A stretch of 47,435 bases of DNA from Candidatus Bathyarchaeota archaeon (GTDB lineage: Archaea > Thermoproteota > CALKCG01 > B24). Numbering within the stretch: the stretch's first letter is position 1; every line of letters begins with the position of its first letter. The stretch is from contig JAGHAZ010000055.1 in NCBI GenBank assembly GCA_021161255.1, positions 1 to 47,435 on the forward strand, written 5' to 3'. The notes beneath the pieces are model-generated. The model was not told where the DNA came from, made no database searches, and saw nothing but the letters and a program-made list of their open reading frames with translations. Shown here one piece after another: positions 1 through 9,087 of the stretch. The position numbers and the translations under genes are program-made.

Positions 1-149
1 GAGTTAAGCCTTCCCGTTGAAAACGGTTCAAAAGAGATACCGTGTTAGAGAATCGGGGTTTAAAACCCGAAGTTAATCTGCGCCGCCTTAACCGGTTTCG
101 AAGCACATATGTTTCACTTTAGGGATCTATCCCTCTAAGGTGGGCTGAG
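1..149. other. Window-edge intergenic region with small inverted repeats
   Basis: No complete gene is visible. Plus frame 1 is open from the window edge to a TAG at 46-48, so the last 15 codons of an upstream gene could be here, but nothing identifies it. Three small inverted repeats are present: CCGTT/AACGG at 14-26, TCGGG/CCCGA around a T/A-rich loop at 53-70, and AGGGAT/ATCCCT at 121-134. The first two could be terminator or leader hairpins. The third lies just upstream of the next gene and could be an operator. I looked for a tRNA fold and did not find a convincing one. Confidence 0.3.
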
Positions 150-548
150 ATGGCCTTGCTGCTTAGGATATCCCGGGATGAGTGGGTTGAACGATTTTTC
201 AGCGACGGTAGATACTACACAGGCCTCAGGAGAAGATGGGAGAAGGGGTTGAAAGCGTTCTTCTTGAAAAAGACGAGTGTTGGAGACTCTGTGATAGGAT
301 ATGGTGTTCTAGACTATTTTATGAGTAGAGAGGAGTGGCTTGCCACGGGGGGTAAGCCATACGACGAGCATCCTTGGAATACGGTTCTCGTATTCAAGCA
401 TCTTGTCAGGTTTCCTAGGCCTGTTCCGGTTAAAGACCTGGGCCTTGACGAGCGTCTCAGGGGTAACCGCCTACACGGCTATAGAATAGGCGATGGTCTG
501 TCGTATAGGATACTCGAGTTGGCTGGGTGTGAAAAAGTAAATCCTTAA
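150..548 (+). CDS. PUA/EVE-like predicted nucleic-acid-binding protein
   Basis: This 132-residue protein has the look of archaeal PUA-like/EVE domain proteins. An early W-x-x-G-L-rich segment is followed by KTSVGDSVIGYGV (about residues 41-53), which resembles the strand where these domains state that an interaction modulates or a compound is conveyed. A late RFPRPVPVKDLGLDERL segment and a terminal GDGLSYRILE complete the fold pattern. Such domains bind modified bases or RNA. The ATG is preceded by AGGTG at the right spacing. It sits 43 nt upstream of the aIF5B gene and may be cotranscribed with it, which would fit an RNA-related role. The family assignment is from sequence feel rather than a diagnostic motif. 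Confidence 0.5.
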   Translation: MALLLRISRDEWVERFFSDGRYYTGLRRRWEKGLKAFFLKKTSVGDSVIGYGVLDYFMSREEWLATGGKPYDEHPWNTVLVFKHLVRFPRPVPVKDLGLDERLRGNRLHGYRIGDGLSYRILELAGCEKVNP

Positions 549-591
549 GAGCTTGGTTAAACTAGGCATACACAGATACCGGTGATGCCGT

Positions 592-2364
592 TTGTCTATA
601 CGACAGCCGATCGTCGTCGTCCTAGGACATATAGACCATGGAAAAACTACTCTACTCGACCGTATCAGAGGCACCAGCGTAGCCTTGAAGGAGCCCGGCG
701 AGATCACCCAACACATAGGAGCAAGCTTCTTTCCCCTCGACGCGTTAGAGAAGGTTTGTAAGCCTCTTCTCGCCAAGACGGGTTGGAAGATAAGGGTTCC
801 CGGTCTCCTAGTCATAGATACGCCTGGTCACAGCGCTTTCATGAACCTCAGGATGAGAGGGGGGTCGATAGCGGATATAGCTATACTGGTCATAGACGTC
901 ATCAAAGGCGTCGAGGAGCAGACGGTCGAGTCTATAGAGCTCCTAAGGTCTAGACGGGTGCCGTTCCTAGTAGCGGTTAATAAGATAGACCTGATACCTG
1001 GCTGGAGACCCAACCCCGGCAAGCCTTTCCACGAAACTCTTAGGATGCAAGACCCCTATGTGAGGAGAGACTTGGATAACCGGCTTTACATTCTGATGGG
1101 TGAATTGTCTAAGCTAGGCTTTCAAGCAGACCGGTATGATAGGGTTAAAGACTTCACAAAGACCGTCGCTCTGGTGCCTGTCAGTGCTAAAACGGGAGAG
1201 GGGATTCCTGACCTTCTACTGGTCTTGATCGGTTTGACTCAACAGTTTCTGCGAAAGAGGCTTCAAACGGTCGGTGGGCCTGCTAGAGGCGCGGTGTTGG
1301 AGGTTAAGGAGGAAGTTGGCCTTGGGACTACGGTTAACGCCATAATCTACGACGGCGTTTTGAACGTCGGAGACACGATAGTGCTCGCCGGTAAGGAGAA
1401 GCCGATAGTCACGAAAATACGCTCTCTACTTTTGCCTAAGCCCTTGGATGAGATAAGGGCACCGACCGGAGGGTTTATTCAAGTCGAGAAGGTCACTGCG
1501 GCGGCGGGTGTAAAGGTCGTAGCTCCAGGTCTCGAGAATGCTCTGCCGGGTTCACCGATTTACGCGGTTCCCAAGGATGCATCCCTAGACGAGTACGTCC
1601 GAAGGGTTTCGGAGGAGATAGGGAAGCTTAGGATCAGAACCGATAAGATAGGTGTAGTCGTCAAAGCCGATACACTCGGCTCTCTGGAGGCTTTGACGAC
1701 CGAGCTTAAACGTAGGGGTATACCGGTTAGGCTAGCCGACATAGGGGATATATCCAAGAGAGACTTCGTCGAGGCTAAGGTGGTGGCTAGGGAGAACCCG
1801 GACTACGGTGTCGTTTTAGGCTTTAACGTCAGGGTTCTACCTGACGCCGTAGAGGAGTCTGCTGGAGTACCTGTTTTCAGAGGCGTCATAATCTACAAGG
1901 TCATCGAAGAGTATCTCGATTGGCTTAAGGCTAAACAGGAGGAGAGGGTTCGGGCGGTGTTGAAGACCCTGGTCTTTCCAGGTAAGATCAGGGTTCTCCC
2001 AGGTTACGTCTTCCGGAGGAGTAAACCCGCTATAGTGGGCATTGAGGTCTTGGCTGGTAGGATCAAGCCGCGTGTCAACTTGATGGATGAAAACGGAGAG
2101 ACCGTGGGGACGATCCTCCAGATCCAGGACCGGGGTAAGCCGATCCAGGAGGCTTCGAGGGGTATGGAGGTCGCCATATCGATAGATAAGGCCGTGGTAG
2201 GTAGACACATCGACGAGGGCGATACGCTCTACGTGAACGTGCCTGAACAGCATTATAAGCTGATCAAGGAGAAGTATACCGACTTCCTATCCGAGGACGA
2301 GCTTGAGGTCCTAGAGGAGATAGCCGCTATACAGAGGCGTAGAAGGCCTGTGTGGGGCTTCTAG
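592..2364 (+). CDS. infB: Translation initiation factor aIF5B (archaeal IF2)
   Basis: This is the GTPase that promotes subunit joining and initiator-tRNA placement on the ribosome. The 590-residue length is normal for the archaeal factor, which lacks the long eukaryotic N-terminal extension. G motifs are clear: GHIDHGKT at 12-19, DTPGH at 76-80 and NKID at 130-133. A beta-barrel domain II, the domain III stretch and the C-terminal domain IV (about residue 480 on) follow. The start is TTG, chosen because GGTGAT at 581-586 lies five bases upstream and because the nearby ATG at 585 is out of frame. No intein is present in the G domain. The S6e gene lies about 0.8 kb downstream, a common archaeal neighbourhood. 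Confidence 0.97.
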   Translation: MSIRQPIVVVLGHIDHGKTTLLDRIRGTSVALKEPGEITQHIGASFFPLDALEKVCKPLLAKTGWKIRVPGLLVIDTPGHSAFMNLRMRGGSIADIAILVIDVIKGVEEQTVESIELLRSRRVPFLVAVNKIDLIPGWRPNPGKPFHETLRMQDPYVRRDLDNRLYILMGELSKLGFQADRYDRVKDFTKTVALVPVSAKTGEGIPDLLLVLIGLTQQFLRKRLQTVGGPARGAVLEVKEEVGLGTTVNAIIYDGVLNVGDTIVLAGKEKPIVTKIRSLLLPKPLDEIRAPTGGFIQVEKVTAAAGVKVVAPGLENALPGSPIYAVPKDASLDEYVRRVSEEIGKLRIRTDKIGVVVKADTLGSLEALTTELKRRGIPVRLADIGDISKRDFVEAKVVARENPDYGVVLGFNVRVLPDAVEESAGVPVFRGVIIYKVIEEYLDWLKAKQEERVRAVLKTLVFPGKIRVLPGYVFRRSKPAIVGIEVLAGRIKPRVNLMDENGETVGTILQIQDRGKPIQEASRGMEVAISIDKAVVGRHIDEGDTLYVNVPEQHYKLIKEKYTDFLSEDELEVLEEIAAIQRRRRPVWGF

Positions 2365-2511
2365 CTTCAAGGGTTAAAGCACTTACTTTTATATTATTAA
2401 GCATCCAGTCCATTTTTGGGCTTAGATGTTAAGCGGTGGCAAAGTAGACTACCAGAAAGGTTGGGAGGCAAATTAAAGCTGGTAGGCACCGGTACGCATA
2501 AGAAGACTGCA

Positions 2512-2546
2512 ACATAAAAATACTGCTCGTTTAGGAGGGATAGCTA
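2512..2546 (+). promoter_or_regulatory. Promoter and ribosome binding site ahead of the ACG-start nitroreductase
   Basis: An A/T-rich TATA-like box (ATAAAAATA, about 2514-2522) is followed by GGAGGG at 2534-2539, seven bases before the proposed ACG start at 2546. There is no in-frame ATG, GTG or TTG between the in-frame TAG at 2483 and position 2546. The spacing closely matches that of the paralogous nitroreductase, where GGAGG precedes an ATG. Confidence 0.5.
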
Positions 2547-3130
2547 CGGAGTTTTACGAAGTCGTCTTTAAAAGGAGAAGTGTTAGAAGCTTTAAGGAAG
2601 AACCGGTACCGGAAGAAGCTTTAAACAGGATTTTGGAAGCTGCCCGTTGGGCTCCCTCTGCGGGGAACACTCAGCCTTGGCGCTTTATAATAATCACAGA
2701 AGTGGCTATGAAACGGAAAATCGCCGAAGTTTGCACTGAATACAGTCGGAAGCACTGGGAGGAATTCCCACCTGAGGTTGCGCGCTACCTGGCGGCTAGA
2801 GGCGGCTCGTGGGACAAATCTACGATGGCTAAAATTCCGGTTCTTATAGCCGTCTGCTACGAGCTTCCGGAAAGGATGCGTCACGAACTTGTTTTAGGCT
2901 CTGTCTGGGCGGCCATCGAAAACATGCTTTTAGCGGCCACGGCGGAGGGTCTAGGAAGCTGTATATATACCTTCTATAATATGGAGGAAGAGGATAGGAT
3001 AAAGCGTATACTACGCGTTCCAAAGGAGTATAGGATTGCCGCGATAATCCAGCTGGGCTATGCAGCAGTTCAGCCACCACCTCCGACCAGAAAGCCGCTA
3101 AAAGAAATAATTCGCAGACAACGTTTCTAA
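2546..3130 (+). CDS. Nitroreductase-family FMN oxidoreductase, apparent ACG start
   Basis: The protein (194 residues from the ACG) belongs to the nitroreductase family of FMN-dependent NAD(P)H oxidoreductases; the substrate is unknown. The FMN phosphate-binding KRRSVRSF segment near the N terminus, the AARWAPSAGNTQPW motif and the C-terminal RKPL-x-EI tail are all present. If translation began at the first canonical in-frame start, a TTG at 2633, the KRRSVR segment would be lost and the fold would begin mid-helix. The codons ACG GAG TTT TAC GAA GTC align directly with ATG GAG TTT TAC GAG GTC of the paralogue ending at 3559. Either ACG is used for initiation, the start has mutated, or one base is a sequencing error. 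The gene lies between aIF5B and S6e on the same strand. Confidence 0.85.
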   Translation, partial: TEFYEVVFKRRSVRSFKEEPVPEEALNRILEAARWAPSAGNTQPWRFIIITEVAMKRKIAEVCTEYSRKHWEEFPPEVARYLAARGGSWDKSTMAKIPVLIAVCYELPERMRHELVLGSVWAAIENMLLAATAEGLGSCIYTFYNMEEEDRIKRILRVPKEYRIAAIIQLGYAAVQPPPPTRKPLKEIIRRQRF

Positions 3131-3161
3131 TTACGCTCTCGGTTATCCGCGGAAGAGAAAA

Positions 3162-3196
3162 CATTTATAGTGGCCCTCTAGGTCTCTTAGGAGGGG
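3162..3196 (+). promoter_or_regulatory. Promoter and ribosome binding site of rps6e
   Basis: A TATA-like TTTATA at about 3163-3169 is followed by GGAGGGG at 3190-3196, and the GTG start of S6e is at 3203. This suggests S6e has its own promoter rather than relying only on readthrough from the nitroreductase gene. Confidence 0.5.
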
Positions 3197-3202
3197 TAGG
3201 AG

Positions 3203-3562
3203 GTGCCGAAGTTCAAACTCGTCATATCGAACCCTAAGACCGGTAAGGCTAAGACGTTCGAGGTTGAAGGCGAGAAGGCTGTTCCCCTGCTTGGACGTAG
3301 GATAGGCGAAGTAGTCGACGGCTCGGTTATGGGGCTTGGAAACGTGAAGCTTCTGATAACCGGTGGAAGCGACAAAGACGGGATACCTATGAGACCCGAC
3401 GTAAGGGGTGGAGTTAAGAAGTACGTACTGTTATCCGGTGGACCAGGCTTCCATCCTAGGAAAAAAGGCCTGAGGGTCCGGAAGCTTGTCAGGGGTAATA
3501 CGATAACCGAGGATATTCTTCAGGTGAACTTGAAGATAGTCGAGGGAGACTTAGGTTTTTAG
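3203..3562 (+). CDS. rps6e: 30S ribosomal protein S6e
   Basis: S6e is a small-subunit ribosomal protein shared by archaea and eukaryotes. The 119 residues include the family's hallmark core [17 protein letters not shown] (about 55-71), followed by [19 protein letters not shown] and the beta-barrel end. The length is typical of short archaeal S6e, which lacks the eukaryotic phosphorylated helix. GTG is chosen as the start because GGAGGGG lies six bases upstream and the N-terminal [10 protein letters not shown] matches the family start. The stop overlaps the convergent nitroreductase gene by four bases. Confidence 0.95.
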
Positions 3563-4086
3563 TAGAACTTGTCGTAGCAGACTATCTCCTCTAGGCTCTT
3601 TCTCAAGCCAGGTTCTCTGAAGACGTCTGGGCTTCTAGGATACCCTAGCGGCGTTATGGCTACGACGTTCACGTCGTCTGGTATACCTAGAATCTTCTTA
3701 ACCTTCTCGTTGTCGAAGCTTCCTATCCAGCATGTTCCAAGCCCCTCAGCCCTAGCCGCTAGGATCAGGTGGGTGAACGCTATCGCTACATCTACGAGCA
3801 TACTATAATCGCCCATATACCTGCCACGGTTATAGTGTATGTTAAACCCGCATGCGACTATAACCAGCGGGGCCTCGGCTATGAACATCTGTCCGTCGCA
3901 GGCCTCGGCGAGCCTACGCTTAACCTCGGGATCCCTGACCACTACGAACTTCCAGGGCTGCCTGTTGGAACCAGAAGGCGCGATCCTCGCCGCGTCGAGA
4001 ACCCTCCTCAACACATCCTCAGGGACAGGGTCGGGCTTATAAGAGCGAACACTCCGTCTAGTCCTAATGACCTCGTAAAACTCCAT
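3559..4086 (-). CDS. Nitroreductase-family FMN oxidoreductase
   Basis: A 175-residue paralogue of the gene at 2546-3130, from the FMN-dependent nitroreductase family; the electron acceptor is unknown. [16 protein letters not shown] provides the FMN-binding arginines, followed by [14 protein letters not shown], a CWIGSF segment near residue 125 and the AITPLGYP motif. The reading frame is open nine codons further upstream, but the ATG at 4086 is preferred because GGAGGT lies eight bases before it and the protein then aligns with its paralogue. A TATA-like TTTATATTA at about 4121-4129 gives a suitable promoter. It converges on S6e with a four-base overlap. Confidence 0.92.
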
Positions 4087-4258
4087 GGCGTAAACCTCCA
4101 GATGATCCGTCATAACGCTCTAATATAAAGGCTTTATCAGAAAAGTGCTCTACTTTGTGTAAGAATCTTTTTCTCTGAAAGCTTGTTGGTCAACGACCTG
4201 ATTATCAACCTTTTTATACCCGTTTTAAATTGGATTTTCTAAAAATCTCGAAGGGTAT

Positions 4259-5593
4259 GTGGATAGGTCTTTGGATGGTTTAAGCGTAGGAGAGATGTCT
4301 GCCGGTAATGAGGGGGATTCGAAGGAGAGAAACCTGCGAGTCCTTTATTTAAACAGGATACTAACTTCCATCGGGGATTACCTGGTTTCTCCGTTTCTCA
4401 GGGTCTACGCTGTCATGATAGGCGCGTCGACCTCTGAGCTGGGTTTCTTCACCTCGATGAGCAGCTTGTCGTCTAACGTCTTGCAGATATTTTTCGGCCG
4501 GCTAACCGATAGATTGAAGAAACGAGTGCCGCTGATAGCTGCTCTGGGCATAGCGTCTTCGCTCATATGGGGTATGGTCGCGTTGGCTAAGACCCCTGAA
4601 ACCTACATATGGCTTATAGTGGTCCGTATGCTCTTGGTCTCCGCCTTATCGCCAGCCTCTATGGCCCTCATGGGGGACCTGATACCTGTGAACGGACGTG
4701 GAGTCGTTACGGCTTCTCTAAACTTTTGGACAAGCCTAGGAGGGCTAGCCGCTATCGTGGCCTCTGGTATCGTGATGACGATGCTTGGCGAAGACAGCGG
4801 AGTATTCGCGATACCGCTTGTCTCGGCCGCGGCTTTAGGGATTCTAGCCTACGTCGTGCTTCTAGCCATCAAGGAGTCTCCTAGACGCGTCATCGCCCGT
4901 AGGCCTATACTCGACGTCAGGAGTCTTATAGCAGACGTTAACGTAAACCCCGGCTTCCGAAGTCTCTGTGCAACACAGGCTCTGTACGTCTTGGCCATGT
5001 CTATAGCATGGCCCGTTTTCCCCGTCACCATGGTTAAAATATTGAATGCCTCCATGTTCGATGTTTCCCTAGCGTCCGTCGCCTCGATAGCGTCGTCTCT
5101 TATAGCTCAGAGGTTTGCGGGTAGGCTCTGCGACCGGGTCGGCCGTAAACCCCTCATAACCTTGGGTAGGTTCTCGTTTATATTCTATCCGGTGACTTAC
5201 ATGTTCGCCCCGAGCATCTACGCTATAATAGCCGTAAACTTCGTCTTAGGTTTTCCATCTGCGCTGTTTTCGACCGCGCTTCTCGTGTTTCTCCTCGACA
5301 ATACCGCAGACGACCTCAGGGGAGAGCTTACGGCGTTCTACAACCTCTCGGTCGGGCTTTCAGGCTTCATAGGCTCGTTGGTGGGAGGGGTGATCGCCGA
5401 TTACCTTCTAGCTACGATGGGTTTATGGGAAGGATGCGCTACCTTATACGCTATCTCGGCGGTCGGAAGGCTATGCGGCGCCTACTTGGTCTATAGGAAG
5501 CTTGAGGAGCCCAGGCGTTATCCCTCGACGCTTAGTATGGAGCTTATGAGCATCGTCAAGAGAGTTGGAGACCGCATTAAAAGGAGGGTTTAA
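4259..5593 (+). CDS. MFS transporter
   Basis: A 444-residue major facilitator superfamily permease with about 12 predicted membrane helices. The MFS signature between helices 2 and 3 appears as GRLTDRLKKRVPLI and is repeated in the second half as GRLCDRVGRKPLI, the usual internal duplication. The cargo cannot be read from the sequence; sugar or drug-type DHA1 permeases are equally possible. The start is a GTG; an ATG 12 codons later is possible but its GGAG would be too close. A TATA-like TTTTTATA at about 4210-4217 lies upstream. The gene ends 32 bases before the UspA gene, so the two may be cotranscribed. A second MFS gene of the same general type is at 42807-43946. Confidence 0.9.
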   Translation: MDRSLDGLSVGEMSAGNEGDSKERNLRVLYLNRILTSIGDYLVSPFLRVYAVMIGASTSELGFFTSMSSLSSNVLQIFFGRLTDRLKKRVPLIAALGIASSLIWGMVALAKTPETYIWLIVVRMLLVSALSPASMALMGDLIPVNGRGVVTASLNFWTSLGGLAAIVASGIVMTMLGEDSGVFAIPLVSAAALGILAYVVLLAIKESPRRVIARRPILDVRSLIADVNVNPGFRSLCATQALYVLAMSIAWPVFPVTMVKILNASMFDVSLASVASIASSLIAQRFAGRLCDRVGRKPLITLGRFSFIFYPVTYMFAPSIYAIIAVNFVLGFPSALFSTALLVFLLDNTADDLRGELTAFYNLSVGLSGFIGSLVGGVIADYLLATMGLWEGCATLYAISAVGRLCGAYLVYRKLEEPRRYPSTLSMELMSIVKRVGDRIKRRV

Positions 5594-5625
5594 AACAGAC
5601 GTAGTCTAATCTATCTAGTAGGTAG

Positions 5626-6081
5626 GTGTTTTTGAGGTCTAACATTCTCATAGCCATAGACGGCTCTGAGATAGGGTGGAAGGCTCTCAACTGGGCTTTT
5701 AAACTCGCTAAGAGTATGGGTTCAGACATAGTTATAATCCACGTGGCGCCGCCTGGCTTCACGATAAAGCAAGCCGTAAACGCTACGTGTGAGGCACCCA
5801 TCTCGATCGTGCCTGAGCCTCCTGAAAGCGTTAAAGAGAGGATTTTGAAGGTCTTGGATGTCCTAGAGGAGGCTAGGAGGCGGGCTGAGGAGGTGGGTCT
5901 AAAGGTCGATTTCGTACTGAGACATGGCGACCCCTCGCGTGAGATAGTTAAAGAGACTTCTAAAGACTACTCTCTCGTTATAATAGGTCACAGAGGATTC
6001 AGCAAGCACAGGTTCGGCTTAGGGAGTATAGCCGAAAAGATCGTGAGAGAAGCTCAATGCTCAGTCCTCGTAGTCAAGTAG
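5626..6081 (+). CDS. Universal stress protein (UspA family)
   Basis: A 151-residue single UspA domain. The N-terminal ILIAIDGSEIGWKAL is the usual first strand and helix. The C-terminal GHRGFSKHRFGLGSIAEKIV matches the ATP-binding pattern G-x2-G-x(8-9)-G-S, so this is probably an ATP-binding type. Family members are cytoplasmic dimers tied to stress or to regulation of neighbouring transporters, and the MFS gene just upstream fits such a link (inference). The start is uncertain between GTG at 5626 and TTG at 5632. Confidence 0.92.
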   Translation: MFLRSNILIAIDGSEIGWKALNWAFKLAKSMGSDIVIIHVAPPGFTIKQAVNATCEAPISIVPEPPESVKERILKVLDVLEEARRRAEEVGLKVDFVLRHGDPSREIVKETSKDYSLVIIGHRGFSKHRFGLGSIAEKIVREAQCSVLVVK

Positions 6082-6085
6082 AGCG

Positions 6086-6376
6086 TCACATCGAGCATGG
6101 TCCTCTAGGGCAGAGATATCTGTGAACTCTCTTAAACCTATCCTCCATAGAGGCCCCCTCTACCACCTGCTTCAAAACTTCCTCAACCACCTTAGCCTGC
6201 TCATCGGCAACAACCATATCGGCGAAGCCGACTTCTTTGGCTTTCGTCTTATACCAACTGCATACCCCTCTACACACGTATCTATGCAGAATCCTACGAG
6301 CCTCCTCTCTCGAAACCCCTAACCGCTCGGCTATCAGTCTTAAGCTTTCCTCTACGTCCTTCACTCGAACCACCAA
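6086..6376 (-). CDS. Small protein with duplicated HRYxC Cys motif, unknown function
   Basis: I do not recognise a family. The 96-residue protein is mostly helical and charged, with no membrane segment or signal peptide. A motif occurs twice: HRYVCRGVCS at 31-40 and HRYLCPRGPCS at 85-95, each following an arginine-rich helix. Two histidines and four cysteines in matched positions suggest a metal site or paired disulfides (inference). The start is a TTG at 6376; a GTG one codon later is equally possible. It converges on the UspA gene with a four-base gap. Confidence 0.65.
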   Translation of the reverse strand: MVVRVKDVEESLRLIAERLGVSREEARRILHRYVCRGVCSWYKTKAKEVGFADMVVADEQAKVVEEVLKQVVEGASMEDRFKRVHRYLCPRGPCSM

Positions 6377-6451
6377 GACCCTGGTTTTAACATAGCATAG
6401 ATAAATACCTTATCCCTCGACAAGTGTGATGAAAACGATGATCGTTCACAT

Positions 6452-6796
6452 CTATCTCAGCCTATGCCTCACACAATACATTCGACAGAGCTCCTCAGCC
6501 TTCTGTTCGAGTCTAACCCGGTAATCCAAGTTTGGCTGGCTTGATCCTCTGAATAACATTCGATACTTCGGTAGAAGCGTAGGAAAGTCTCTTCCAAGGA
6601 CCCTATAATACAGGGTTTTTACCTACACCGTATAACGTCAAACATCCGATGAAGACGTAGTTGCATCATACTCCTTGGCTGTCTTCACCATATTCTCCGG
6701 TTCTTCATCTGTATCTGAGATATAGGGTAGGACGGGGATGTACGCTATTCCTGTTTGAAGCCCCTCATCCTTTCTCTGAAATCTTATATATTTCCG
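6452..6796 (-). pseudogene. Decayed C-terminal fragment of a radical SAM (SPL-like) protein
   Basis: On the minus strand, three frames together spell the C-terminal part of an archaeal radical SAM protein of the spore-photolyase-like COG1533 type. About 6796-6662 reads RFQRKDEGLQTGIAYIPVLP and on through YISDTDEE. One base is missing near 6663, after which YVFIGCLTLYGVGK is read. A second shift in the A-run at 6616-6620 leads to TLYYRVLGRDFPTLLPKYRM and then RLEQKAEELCRMYCVRHRLR before a TAG at 6454-6452. The N-terminal two thirds, including the Cys triad, are absent because the DUF89 promoter and gene start there. The two indels could be sequencing errors, but the truncation cannot be. Confidence 0.75.
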
Positions 6797-6857
6797 GGTT
6801 AATTTAACTTCGGAACTTTTATGTCAGGCGGCTGCTTGTCTGACCTAAGCGGAGATA

Positions 6858-6895
6858 TCTTTATAGCTGAGGCGTCCTGGTCTATTCGAGAGGTG
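6858..6895 (+). promoter_or_regulatory. Promoter and ribosome binding site of the DUF89 gene
   Basis: TTTATA at about 6860-6865 is a good archaeal TATA box, and GAGGTG at 6890-6895 is the ribosome binding site, ten bases before the TTG start at 6906. Confidence 0.5.
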
Positions 6896-6905
6896 CGTCT
6901 GGGGG

Positions 6906-7778
6906 TTGGAGGTTAAGCCTGAGTGTATACCGTGTCTGATAGACGTTAGATGCCGCGAGGTTATACGGGTGCTCGACGACTCGCCCGAGGCCTTTAAAAT
7001 ATGCCTGGAGGTCGTCCAGACGCTTCTGAAGCTCCTCGATGAAACCCGTCATACGACTAAGTTGGCGACCGAGCTCTACCGTCTCGTCCTCAAGAGGCTG
7101 GGTGTAGACCCGTATAAAGGCGATAAAGAGGCCGCGAACAAGTGGGCTTTGAAGGTTCTTCCGTCCGCTATCTCCATGCTCGAGGAGGTCGACGACCCTC
7201 TCGAGAGGTTCAGAGCCGCCGTGAGGTTTAGCCTCGTAGGTAACGCTATAGACCTCGGTGTTTCAGGCTACCGGTTTAGCCTAGAGGAGCTGGAGAAGGC
7301 GTTTGAAACCGTTAGGCTTGAGGTGGACGACACGGTCGAGGCGTACGATAGGGTCAGAGAAGCCTCAAGGGTGCTTTACTTGTGCGATAACACAGGGGAG
7401 GTGGTCTTGGATAGGCTGCTGGTCAGGGAGCTTAAGAGGCTTGGGGTCTCTGTTACAGTGGTCGTTAGAAGCGAACCCTATCAGAACGACGCTACTATGG
7501 AGGATGCCTATGAATCCGGGATCACTTCGGAGGCCGACAGGGTTATGGCTGCCGGGGAGGGAACATACTTATCCCCCGACCTGCTGTCTAAGCCTTTTCT
7601 AGAGGAGCTTGAAAACTCAGACCTCGTCGTCTTGAAGGGTATGGCGAACTACGAGAACCTAAGCCTCCTCCAGCGGGTGAGACCCTCGGGCTATCTCCTG
7701 CTTCTGAAGGCGAAGTGTAGACCGATAGCCGAAAGCCTAGGCGTCGAAGTAGGCGATTACGTGGCTAAACTCGTCTAA
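6906..7778 (+). CDS. DUF89/ARMT1-like metal-dependent phosphatase
   Basis: The 290-residue protein matches the DUF89 family, metal-dependent damage-control phosphatases thought to remove harmful or misphosphorylated metabolites. It is the short archaeal form with the N-terminal Cys pair ECIPC (C7, C10). The metal and phosphate site appears as LYLCDNTGEVVLDRL (D161, N162, E165), with N113 in the SLVGNAID segment and a later VLKGMANYENL motif. The true substrate is unknown; sugar phosphates are typical for the family. The start is TTG, supported by GAGGTG upstream. It is followed 39 bases later by the SWIM gene, which has its own TATA box. Confidence 0.9.
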   Translation: MEVKPECIPCLIDVRCREVIRVLDDSPEAFKICLEVVQTLLKLLDETRHTTKLATELYRLVLKRLGVDPYKGDKEAANKWALKVLPSAISMLEEVDDPLERFRAAVRFSLVGNAIDLGVSGYRFSLEELEKAFETVRLEVDDTVEAYDRVREASRVLYLCDNTGEVVLDRLLVRELKRLGVSVTVVVRSEPYQNDATMEDAYESGITSEADRVMAAGEGTYLSPDLLSKPFLEELENSDLVVLKGMANYENLSLLQRVRPSGYLLLLKAKCRPIAESLGVEVGDYVAKLV

Positions 7779-7792
7779 ACGCTCGGAGAACG

Positions 7793-7801
7793 TTTTTAAA
7801 C
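7793..7801 (+). promoter_or_regulatory. TATA-like box of the SWIM-domain gene
   Basis: TTTTTAAAC at about 7793-7801 lies about 20 bases before the ATG at 7818. No ribosome binding site is visible between them, so the transcript is probably leaderless or nearly so. Confidence 0.45.
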
Positions 7802-7817
7802 AGCCTCAACCGGTTCT

Positions 7818-8435
7818 ATGCATGGGTTGGTCAAGACCTTCAGAGACCTCTATACGTCCATAGCGGGTTCGAGCCTGAAGGAGAAGCTTGAAGGTCTGAG
7901 TAAGGTTCTAGGCTCTAGGTTTAAGGAGGCTTTGAAGCTTGTCGAGCAGGGTAGGGTTAGGAGGTATGTCTTCAAGCCTAGCGGTAGGGTCTTGTGGACT
8001 GTCGCCGGTAGAGAGGGTGTCTACGAGGTTATACCTGAGGCTCCCTACTGTAGCTGCGACGACTTTTACTTTCGGGTTTTGAACGGTAAGGCTCCGCTAT
8101 GCTACCATCTGATAGCCCAGGGTTTGGCCGAGGCTACGGGTAGATACGTGACAGTCGAGGAGGACGACAGCGTGTACGACGAGTTTGTAAGCGTATTCAG
8201 GAGGCTTAGACGGCTCGGTAAGCCTAAGACCTACGTAAGGTACCGAGACGAGGTTAGGGATAGGGTCGAGGCTTTGCTTAAAGAAGGCCCTATGAGGGCT
8301 AGAGACATATTAAGGGAGGTGCTTGCCATGGGGTTCGAGATACCTAGCGTCAATAGCCTAGCTGGCTTTCTCAGAAACGACCCTAAGAGGAGGTTTATCT
8401 GCGATAAAGGGTTATGGATGCTTAGGAGACGCTAG
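7818..8435 (+). CDS. SWIM zinc-finger protein, Sws1-like, with C-terminal winged-helix-like region
   Basis: A 205-residue protein with a SWIM zinc motif. YCSCDDFYFRVLNG supplies C-x-C and CYHLIA supplies C-x-H. The full pattern C-x-C-xn-C-x-H-x-x-A is the one described for Sws1/Shu2, the SWIM protein that partners Rad51 paralogues in homologous recombination. Residues about 150-205 (DRVEALLKEGPMRARDILRE and onward) look like a winged helix, not part of the minimal Sws1 fold. I infer a DNA-repair role for this protein. The 3' end overlaps the convergent nuclease-like gene by 24 bases. No Rad51/RadA paralogue is in the window. Confidence 0.75.
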   Translation: MHGLVKTFRDLYTSIAGSSLKEKLEGLSKVLGSRFKEALKLVEQGRVRRYVFKPSGRVLWTVAGREGVYEVIPEAPYCSCDDFYFRVLNGKAPLCYHLIAQGLAEATGRYVTVEEDDSVYDEFVSVFRRLRRLGKPKTYVRYRDEVRDRVEALLKEGPMRARDILREVLAMGFEIPSVNSLAGFLRNDPKRRFICDKGLWMLRRR

Positions 8436-8774
8436 GACGGGTCTTCTTAAAACGGATAGGATGTCCTCTACCGTCAGGAGTTCTATACCCCTTCTGGAGG
8501 CATACATGTAGACCGATGGGCTGAACCTATAGGCGACTAGAACGGGCTTTCCCAAGCCGACGTCCTCAGATGCCCTGTCGAGCCTGACGGCGACGTTTAT
8601 GCCCACGGCTCTCCTCCACTCCTTGATCCAAACCCCTCTTAGGGAGCCGTCTTTGCCCCTGAGCAGGAGGTCGAACACGTATTTGACACCCCACTTACCC
8701 CTTAGAGTGACGTTCCTCTCGACGTCGTATCCGTTTAGCTCGAAGTATCTAGCAGCAAGCTCTACGATCCTCAA
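8412..8774 (-). CDS. Restriction-endonuclease-like (PD-(D/E)XK-type) small protein, atypical motif
   Basis: The 120-residue protein resembles small archaeal nuclease-fold proteins. An N-terminal helix (ELAARYFELNGYDVER) leads to a strand KYVFDLLL with an acidic residue at D35, then GVWIKEWRR about 14 residues later where ExK is expected. The later ADVG-like RASEDVGLGKPVLVAYRFS segment also fits. The order WIKEW places K51 and E52 unusually, so the catalytic site may be degenerate, or this may be a DNA-binding relative. The start is a TTG next to a GGGGGG run that can act as ribosome binding site. It converges with the Sws1-like gene, an arrangement that may hint at a linked function. Confidence 0.5.
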   Translation of the reverse strand: MRIVELAARYFELNGYDVERNVTLRGKWGVKYVFDLLLRGKDGSLRGVWIKEWRRAVGINVAVRLDRASEDVGLGKPVLVAYRFSPSVYMYASRRGIELLTVEDILSVLRRPVLASPKHP

Positions 8775-8874
8775 TCGACCCCCCAGAATATGATATGCTT
8801 AGGTTTGTTAAGGGGTTTACTTGGGGAAAACTAGAAAATCTTTTAGTTCTGCCCAAAGTCTGAGGGGGTCGATT
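8773..8874. repeat. 102-bp element bounded by 15/16-bp inverted repeats
   Basis: AATCGACCCCCCAGA (8773-8787) and TCTGAGGGGGTCGATT (8859-8874) are inverted copies differing by one inserted base. Inside, TTGGG (8821-8825) pairs with CCCAA (about 8852-8856) and AACTA pairs with TAGTT further in. The left arm covers the start of the nuclease-like gene. It could be a MITE-like insertion, a terminator pair or a structured RNA; the sequence alone does not decide. Confidence 0.6.
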
Positions 8875-8908
8875 TTACTACCGAACACACGTGTAGCATG
8901 GCGGTCTT

Positions 8909-8980
8909 AGGTCGTTTAACTGCTATTGTACCCGACCTAGGGGTTTAGACTCTGATATTTCCAAAAGCTGTGCTAAACCC
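8909..8980. repeat. Two further inverted repeats in the same gap
   Basis: TAGGTCG pairs with CGACCTA (about 8909-8915 and 8933-8939, 17-base loop) and GGGTTTAG (8941-8948) pairs with CTAAACCC (8973-8980). With the element at 8773-8874 they make 8775-9087 the most hairpin-rich gap in the window. I see no open reading frame of note in this 313-base stretch. Confidence 0.5.
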
Positions 8981-9087
8981 AAGACGGCGAATCCTAGGCT
9001 ACGGTAGAGTATAGTCTAGACAAATGTTTATCGTTACCCAAACTCTTTAAAACGGTACGCATGGATATTATCTGTTCGGTGTCATAG

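Follow-up and report, generated by a model that had tools for sequence, protein, structure and literature searches.

Where does translation begin, if it begins at all, in a gene whose conserved reading frame holds no ATG, GTG or TTG until after its predicted FMN-binding motif? This question is raised by a nitroreductase-family gene on contig C55, a window of 47,435 nucleotides in a draft archaeal genome (1.67 Mb, 85 contigs). The gene lies between aIF5B (592-2364, upstream) and ribosomal protein S6e (3203-3562, downstream). In two genomes from another genus of the same family, these two genes are separated by ∼100-200 nt that hold no nitroreductase; judging from these neighbourhoods, the nitroreductase gene is an insertion of this genus only. 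The features on which the argument turns are as follows.

2515..2522, plus strand: A/T-rich TATA-like element TAAAAATA, the same in the sister species; a putative promoter element, proposed from spacing statistics
2534..2539, plus strand: Shine-Dalgarno-like GGAGGG (GGAGG at 2534-2538), the same letters in the sister species
2540..2542, plus strand: in-frame ATA; the aligned sister codon is ATG
2546..2548, plus strand: ACG, proposed to be the start; most homologues start at the aligned codon, and the sister species keeps the ACG
2546..3130, plus strand: nitroreductase-family flavoprotein gene (PF00881), 194 codons plus stop, frame intact
2633..2635, plus strand: TTG, the first canonical start in frame, inside 'RILEAARW' and after KRRSVRSF
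3559..4086, minus strand: nitroreductase paralogue that has ATG in the position of the ACG, preceded at 8 nt by GGAGG

The family assignment is straightforward. In a Pfam search, the protein covered positions 3-167 of the 167 in the PF00881 profile (E=1.1e-35), and its best PDB relatives are 4dn2 and the iodotyrosine deiodinase-like 6pz0. The fold, the FMN-binding RRSVR and the N-terminal helix of these nitroreductases appear to be common to the window protein; what sets the window gene apart from them is the lack of a canonical start codon. An in-frame TAG (2483-2485) and the stop codon at 3128-3130 bound the open frame. The sequence-only reading was correct, in coordinates and in letters, that this frame contains no ATG, GTG or TTG between that TAG and TTG 2633. 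It was equally right that a start at this TTG would remove KRRSVRSF, the N-terminal RRS-x-R motif predicted to bind FMN, which occupies codons 11-18 counting from ATA 2540; the N-terminal helix would be deleted as well, and the motif is thus kept only if translation starts before 2633. The other table 11 starts in the frame are CTG 2507, ATA 2498 and ATA 2540. Coding sequence upstream of 2540 was considered and rejected, as a 1-nt indel between the two species breaks the frame there.

Where, then, do the relatives of this gene start? Of 105 aligned homologues, 68 carry a canonical start precisely where the window has its ACG; of the other 37, a canonical start is found within five codons in 31, only further upstream in four and not at all in two. 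These last two, both archaeal nitroreductase genes, carry at the ACG-aligned codon a CTG (L005) and an ATA (L033, from Bathyarchaeota), each one base from ATG. The paralogue on the opposite strand has its ATG (4086) at the same place, which speaks for a start at the ACG; this match had been noticed before and stands, although the paralogous frame also has an earlier ATG at 4113.

The signals upstream of the ACG point the same way. The GGAGGG that had been described seven bases ahead of the ACG is indeed there, with GGAGG ending 7 nt before 2546 and 1 nt before ATA 2540. Across 415 genes with conserved starts, the spacing of GGAGG in this genome peaks at 7-10 nt; the ACG sits on this peak, and the ATA, or the ATG of the sister species, sits off it. 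A GGAGG ends 5-10 nt before a random genome position with a frequency of 0.0125, and its placement before the ACG is more than chance. From the position of the TATA-like TAAAAATA, transcription would be expected to begin near 2538-2545, in which case GGAGG is possibly absent from the nitroreductase mRNA; the distance of the element does not discriminate a start at 2540 from one at 2546. An Rfam search of window positions 1-9000 returned no match up to E=5.

Comparison within the genus rests on two genomes, this one and that of a sister species. By direct alignment, TAAAAATA, GGAGGG and ACG GAG TTT TAC GAA are identical in the two; in other words, inspection of the orthologous codon at 2546, which the sequence-only reading had proposed, gives for one relative, the sister, ACG rather than ATG. 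Between GGAGGG and ACG stand two codons, ATG GTT for the sister and ATA GCT for this genome, which differ by one substitution each; that the ACG stayed unchanged while both codons before it did not favours the ACG as the start. Because both species have it, the ACG was probably already present in the ancestor of the genus. The sister, however, also has a canonical in-frame ATG two codons before its ACG, 1 nt after GGAGG; neither this ATG nor the ATA at 2540 figured in the earlier note. Furthermore, the sister copy has a 2-nt deletion near window position 2973 and a stop soon after; together with the ATG at 2540, this may mean that the genus is losing the gene.

Is the window copy itself under constraint? 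It shows no sign of being a pseudogene, with 194 codons free of stops and indels and, for the window-sister pair, dN 0.064, dS 0.368 and dN/dS 0.17; most other genes in the aligned portion of the window have a dN/dS of 0.03-0.17. At the 28 amino-acid differences between the copies, the window residue is the better fit to the family at 20 and the sister's at eight, the sum being 33.8 bits for the window residues (sign-flip p=0.03, or p=0.047 without the first two codons). This pattern would suit constraint on the window copy and decay of the sister's; fit and constraint are nonetheless suggestive rather than proof, since a recently lost start leaves no other trace.

A second gene of the class bears on the question. 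We compared sampled stretches of this genome (∼0.83 Mb) and of the sister (1.1 Mb), with 434 orthologue pairs between them, looking for genes in which conserved coding sequence extends upstream beyond the first canonical start. The nitroreductase gene was flagged in the first scan, along with many other candidates, but was not retained by the output filter of the second; the candidates that were read proved mostly to be opposite-strand shadow frames, homopolymer frameshifts (in L184 and L274) and intron-like inserts, and those otherwise unaccounted for were a radical SAM gene in L277 and ftsY, listed here.

L195:5366-6292 (contig C37 of this genome): ftsY, the SRP receptor (PF00448, PF02881); other class members in L219-L223, L229 and L230

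In this genome the open frame reaches the SRP54_N domain of FtsY at codon 14 but has its first canonical start only at codon 52. Codon 8, which is the start (ATG or TTG) in most other Thermoproteota-type relatives, is CTG in 7/7 genomes of the class, spanning three families, and in every one of the seven a Shine-Dalgarno of GGAGG or GGGGAG type precedes it at 7-9 nt. In three of the seven (this genome, G004 and G005), the stretch ahead of the N domain lacks any canonical start. As for the alternatives elsewhere, the TTG of the sister and the GTG of G002 and G003 fall only 0-3 nt after the Shine-Dalgarno, and the TTG of G006 lies further upstream, where its close relative has a stop. Thus ftsY appears, from these alignments, to start from CTG across the class. 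The 3' end of the upstream gene covers the CTG; termination-reinitiation could thus assist initiation there, and the overlap itself may constrain the codon. There is a resemblance to the window gene: in both, a near-cognate codon occupies exactly the position at which the family starts and follows a Shine-Dalgarno at 7-9 nt, and this genome, G004 and G005 offer ftsY no canonical alternative. The differences are also plain, as ftsY has CTG and not ACG, has it in three families, is an essential gene and overlaps the end of its upstream neighbour.

Taken together, these observations favour the ACG at 2546: it stands at the family start position, is well spaced from the Shine-Dalgarno, is conserved in the sister and opens an intact, constrained frame, and the CTG at the start of ftsY throughout the class makes non-canonical initiation plausible for the nitroreductase too. 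We regard translation from this ACG, at low output, as the best single reading, and give it about an even chance of being correct. The more general proposal, that the class tolerates near-cognate starts behind a strong Shine-Dalgarno, CUG for ftsY and ACG for the nitroreductase, strikes us as credible at slightly less than even probability. The earlier note had left the choice between a non-canonical start and a mutated one; the first is now favoured over the second, for which the candidate mutation is located not only at 2546 but at 2542, where the sister's ATG corresponds to ATA in this genome.

What might initiation at this codon look like? Pairing of GGAGG at 2534-2538 with the 3' end of 16S rRNA would set the ACG in the P site, where the initiator Met-tRNA (CAU) could pair at the first and third positions with a mismatch at the second, and protein with an N-terminal Met would be made at low yield. 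Use of the ACG by the ribosome, the presence of GGAGG within the mRNA and the level of output are all things that we infer from DNA. Low expression is to be expected, given that a CUG start yields 0.86% of AUG output in E. coli (PMC11497404) and that aIF1 of S. solfataricus discriminates against non-canonical starts (PMC6237735). Absence of aIF1 as the cause of the non-canonical start was considered and rejected, because its gene was found in 7/7 class genomes.

The order of the readings is use of the ACG, then loss of a start at 2540, then assembly error, then use of AUA. The second of these, that ATG 2540 was the functional start and has recently become ATA in the window lineage, leaving the gene silent or nearly so, with loss of the sister copy also under way, is in our estimate unlikely, yet the most serious competitor. 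It draws on the pair ATG GTT ACG GAG in the sister and ATA GCT ACG GAG in the window, on the 2-nt deletion in the sister and on a dN/dS that lies at the high end among neighbouring genes; the insertion in one genus only would suit it too, as such a gene may be dispensable, and the TATA-like element suits a leaderless transcript from 2540, with a leaderless ATG in the sister. Against these points, an ATG at 2540 would be only 1 nt after GGAGG and off the genome's spacing peak, and it is the window copy that is free of stops and indels and has the more family-typical residues. Loss of the start at 2540 would also turn an ACG at the family start, with its well-placed Shine-Dalgarno, into a coincidence or a relic.

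Could the base at 2542 simply be a G, so that the codon is ATG as in the sister and the ATA a sequencing or assembly error? The genome is a draft in 85 contigs, and an extra T in a homopolymer sets at least two of its genes (L184 and L274) apart from those of the sister. At 2542, however, the two genomes differ by a substitution that lies outside any homopolymer and has a second difference two bases on, and start codons are the same in both genomes for the other genes in the first 34 kb of the window; we hold an error to be improbable. More doubtful again is that ATA 2540 itself serves as the start, perhaps on an mRNA with no leader or a very short one. This codon is one base from ATG, is listed in table 11, is aligned with the sister's ATG and lies close to the predicted transcript start, and ATA is also what the Bathyarchaeota homologue carries where the family starts; but the spacing from GGAGG is 1, and a search of the open-access literature found no archaeal AUA start. 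Finally, a start codon in an upstream exon, joined by removal of a bulge-helix-bulge intron, has the intron-like insert in aEF-2 of 7/7 class members as a precedent, but is very improbable here, as 2405-2552 folds no better than shuffled sequence (z=0.86), no upstream ATG exon is conserved and the sister has an in-frame ATG without any insert.

Rare non-canonical starts are familiar from bacteria, for example the AUU codons of infC and pcnB in E. coli. Another is the GTC start codon of sigR in Streptomyces (PMC5472188). The window gene would resemble these three in that a one-base neighbour of AUG or GUG starts an intact gene with apparent help from a Shine-Dalgarno, and would differ from them in using ACG rather than AUU or GUC, in being archaeal and in having no known feedback or initiation-factor control. 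A survey of 36 bacterial and archaeal groups counted 2 of 61,358 ancestral AUG starts changed to CUG and reported none as ACG (PMC5622118), and our search of open-access papers found none on ACG or CUG starts in archaea. Non-canonical starts being known in general, the class-wide CTG of ftsY, if real, is the more interesting result. If the readings proposed here are true, start-codon choice is looser than known for archaea, and some genes of this class are mis-annotated or missed, as gene finders that take ATG, GTG and TTG will cut genes like this nitroreductase short or drop them. A class-wide CUG in the essential ftsY would provide a natural case for testing how much mismatch archaeal initiation factors tolerate, and it makes the ACG reading of the nitroreductase testable rather than merely odd.

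The comparison of genomes also brought up other interrupted or shifted genes. In aEF-2 (L293-L299; L269:3120-3330 in contig C44 of this genome), all seven class genomes have, at about codon 25-30, a short stop-containing insert that differs among them in length and frame and has a hairpin flanked by further pairing; in this genome it reads TCCGAAAG ACCTGAGG CTCGA CCTCGGGT CCGGA. By its sequence it looks like a bulge-helix-bulge pre-mRNA intron, and among open-access papers we found none on such an intron in archaeal EF-2. In-frame stops at hairpins inside conserved coding sequence occur, in both species, in a radical SAM gene (L181:6515-8380, minus strand) that also appears to hold an intein, in a DUF655-like gene (L270:9804-10274, minus strand) and in a PHP-type gene (L282:2030-2566, minus strand); judged by eye, these three are possible further introns of the same kind. 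In the other radical SAM gene (L277:1497-2471, plus strand, on contig C51 of this genome), a T5 run puts an upstream ATG out of frame with the conserved start in both species, as might result from a frameshift, slippage or another start. Extra T residues in T runs relative to the sister give frameshifts near the gene start in a luciferase-like oxidoreductase (L184:11361-12293, plus strand) and a sugar isomerase-like gene (L274:17171-18082, plus strand), and these are either assembly errors or real. Within the window itself, at 6774-6823, contig C5 of the sister carries ∼15 kb extra in an otherwise collinear region.
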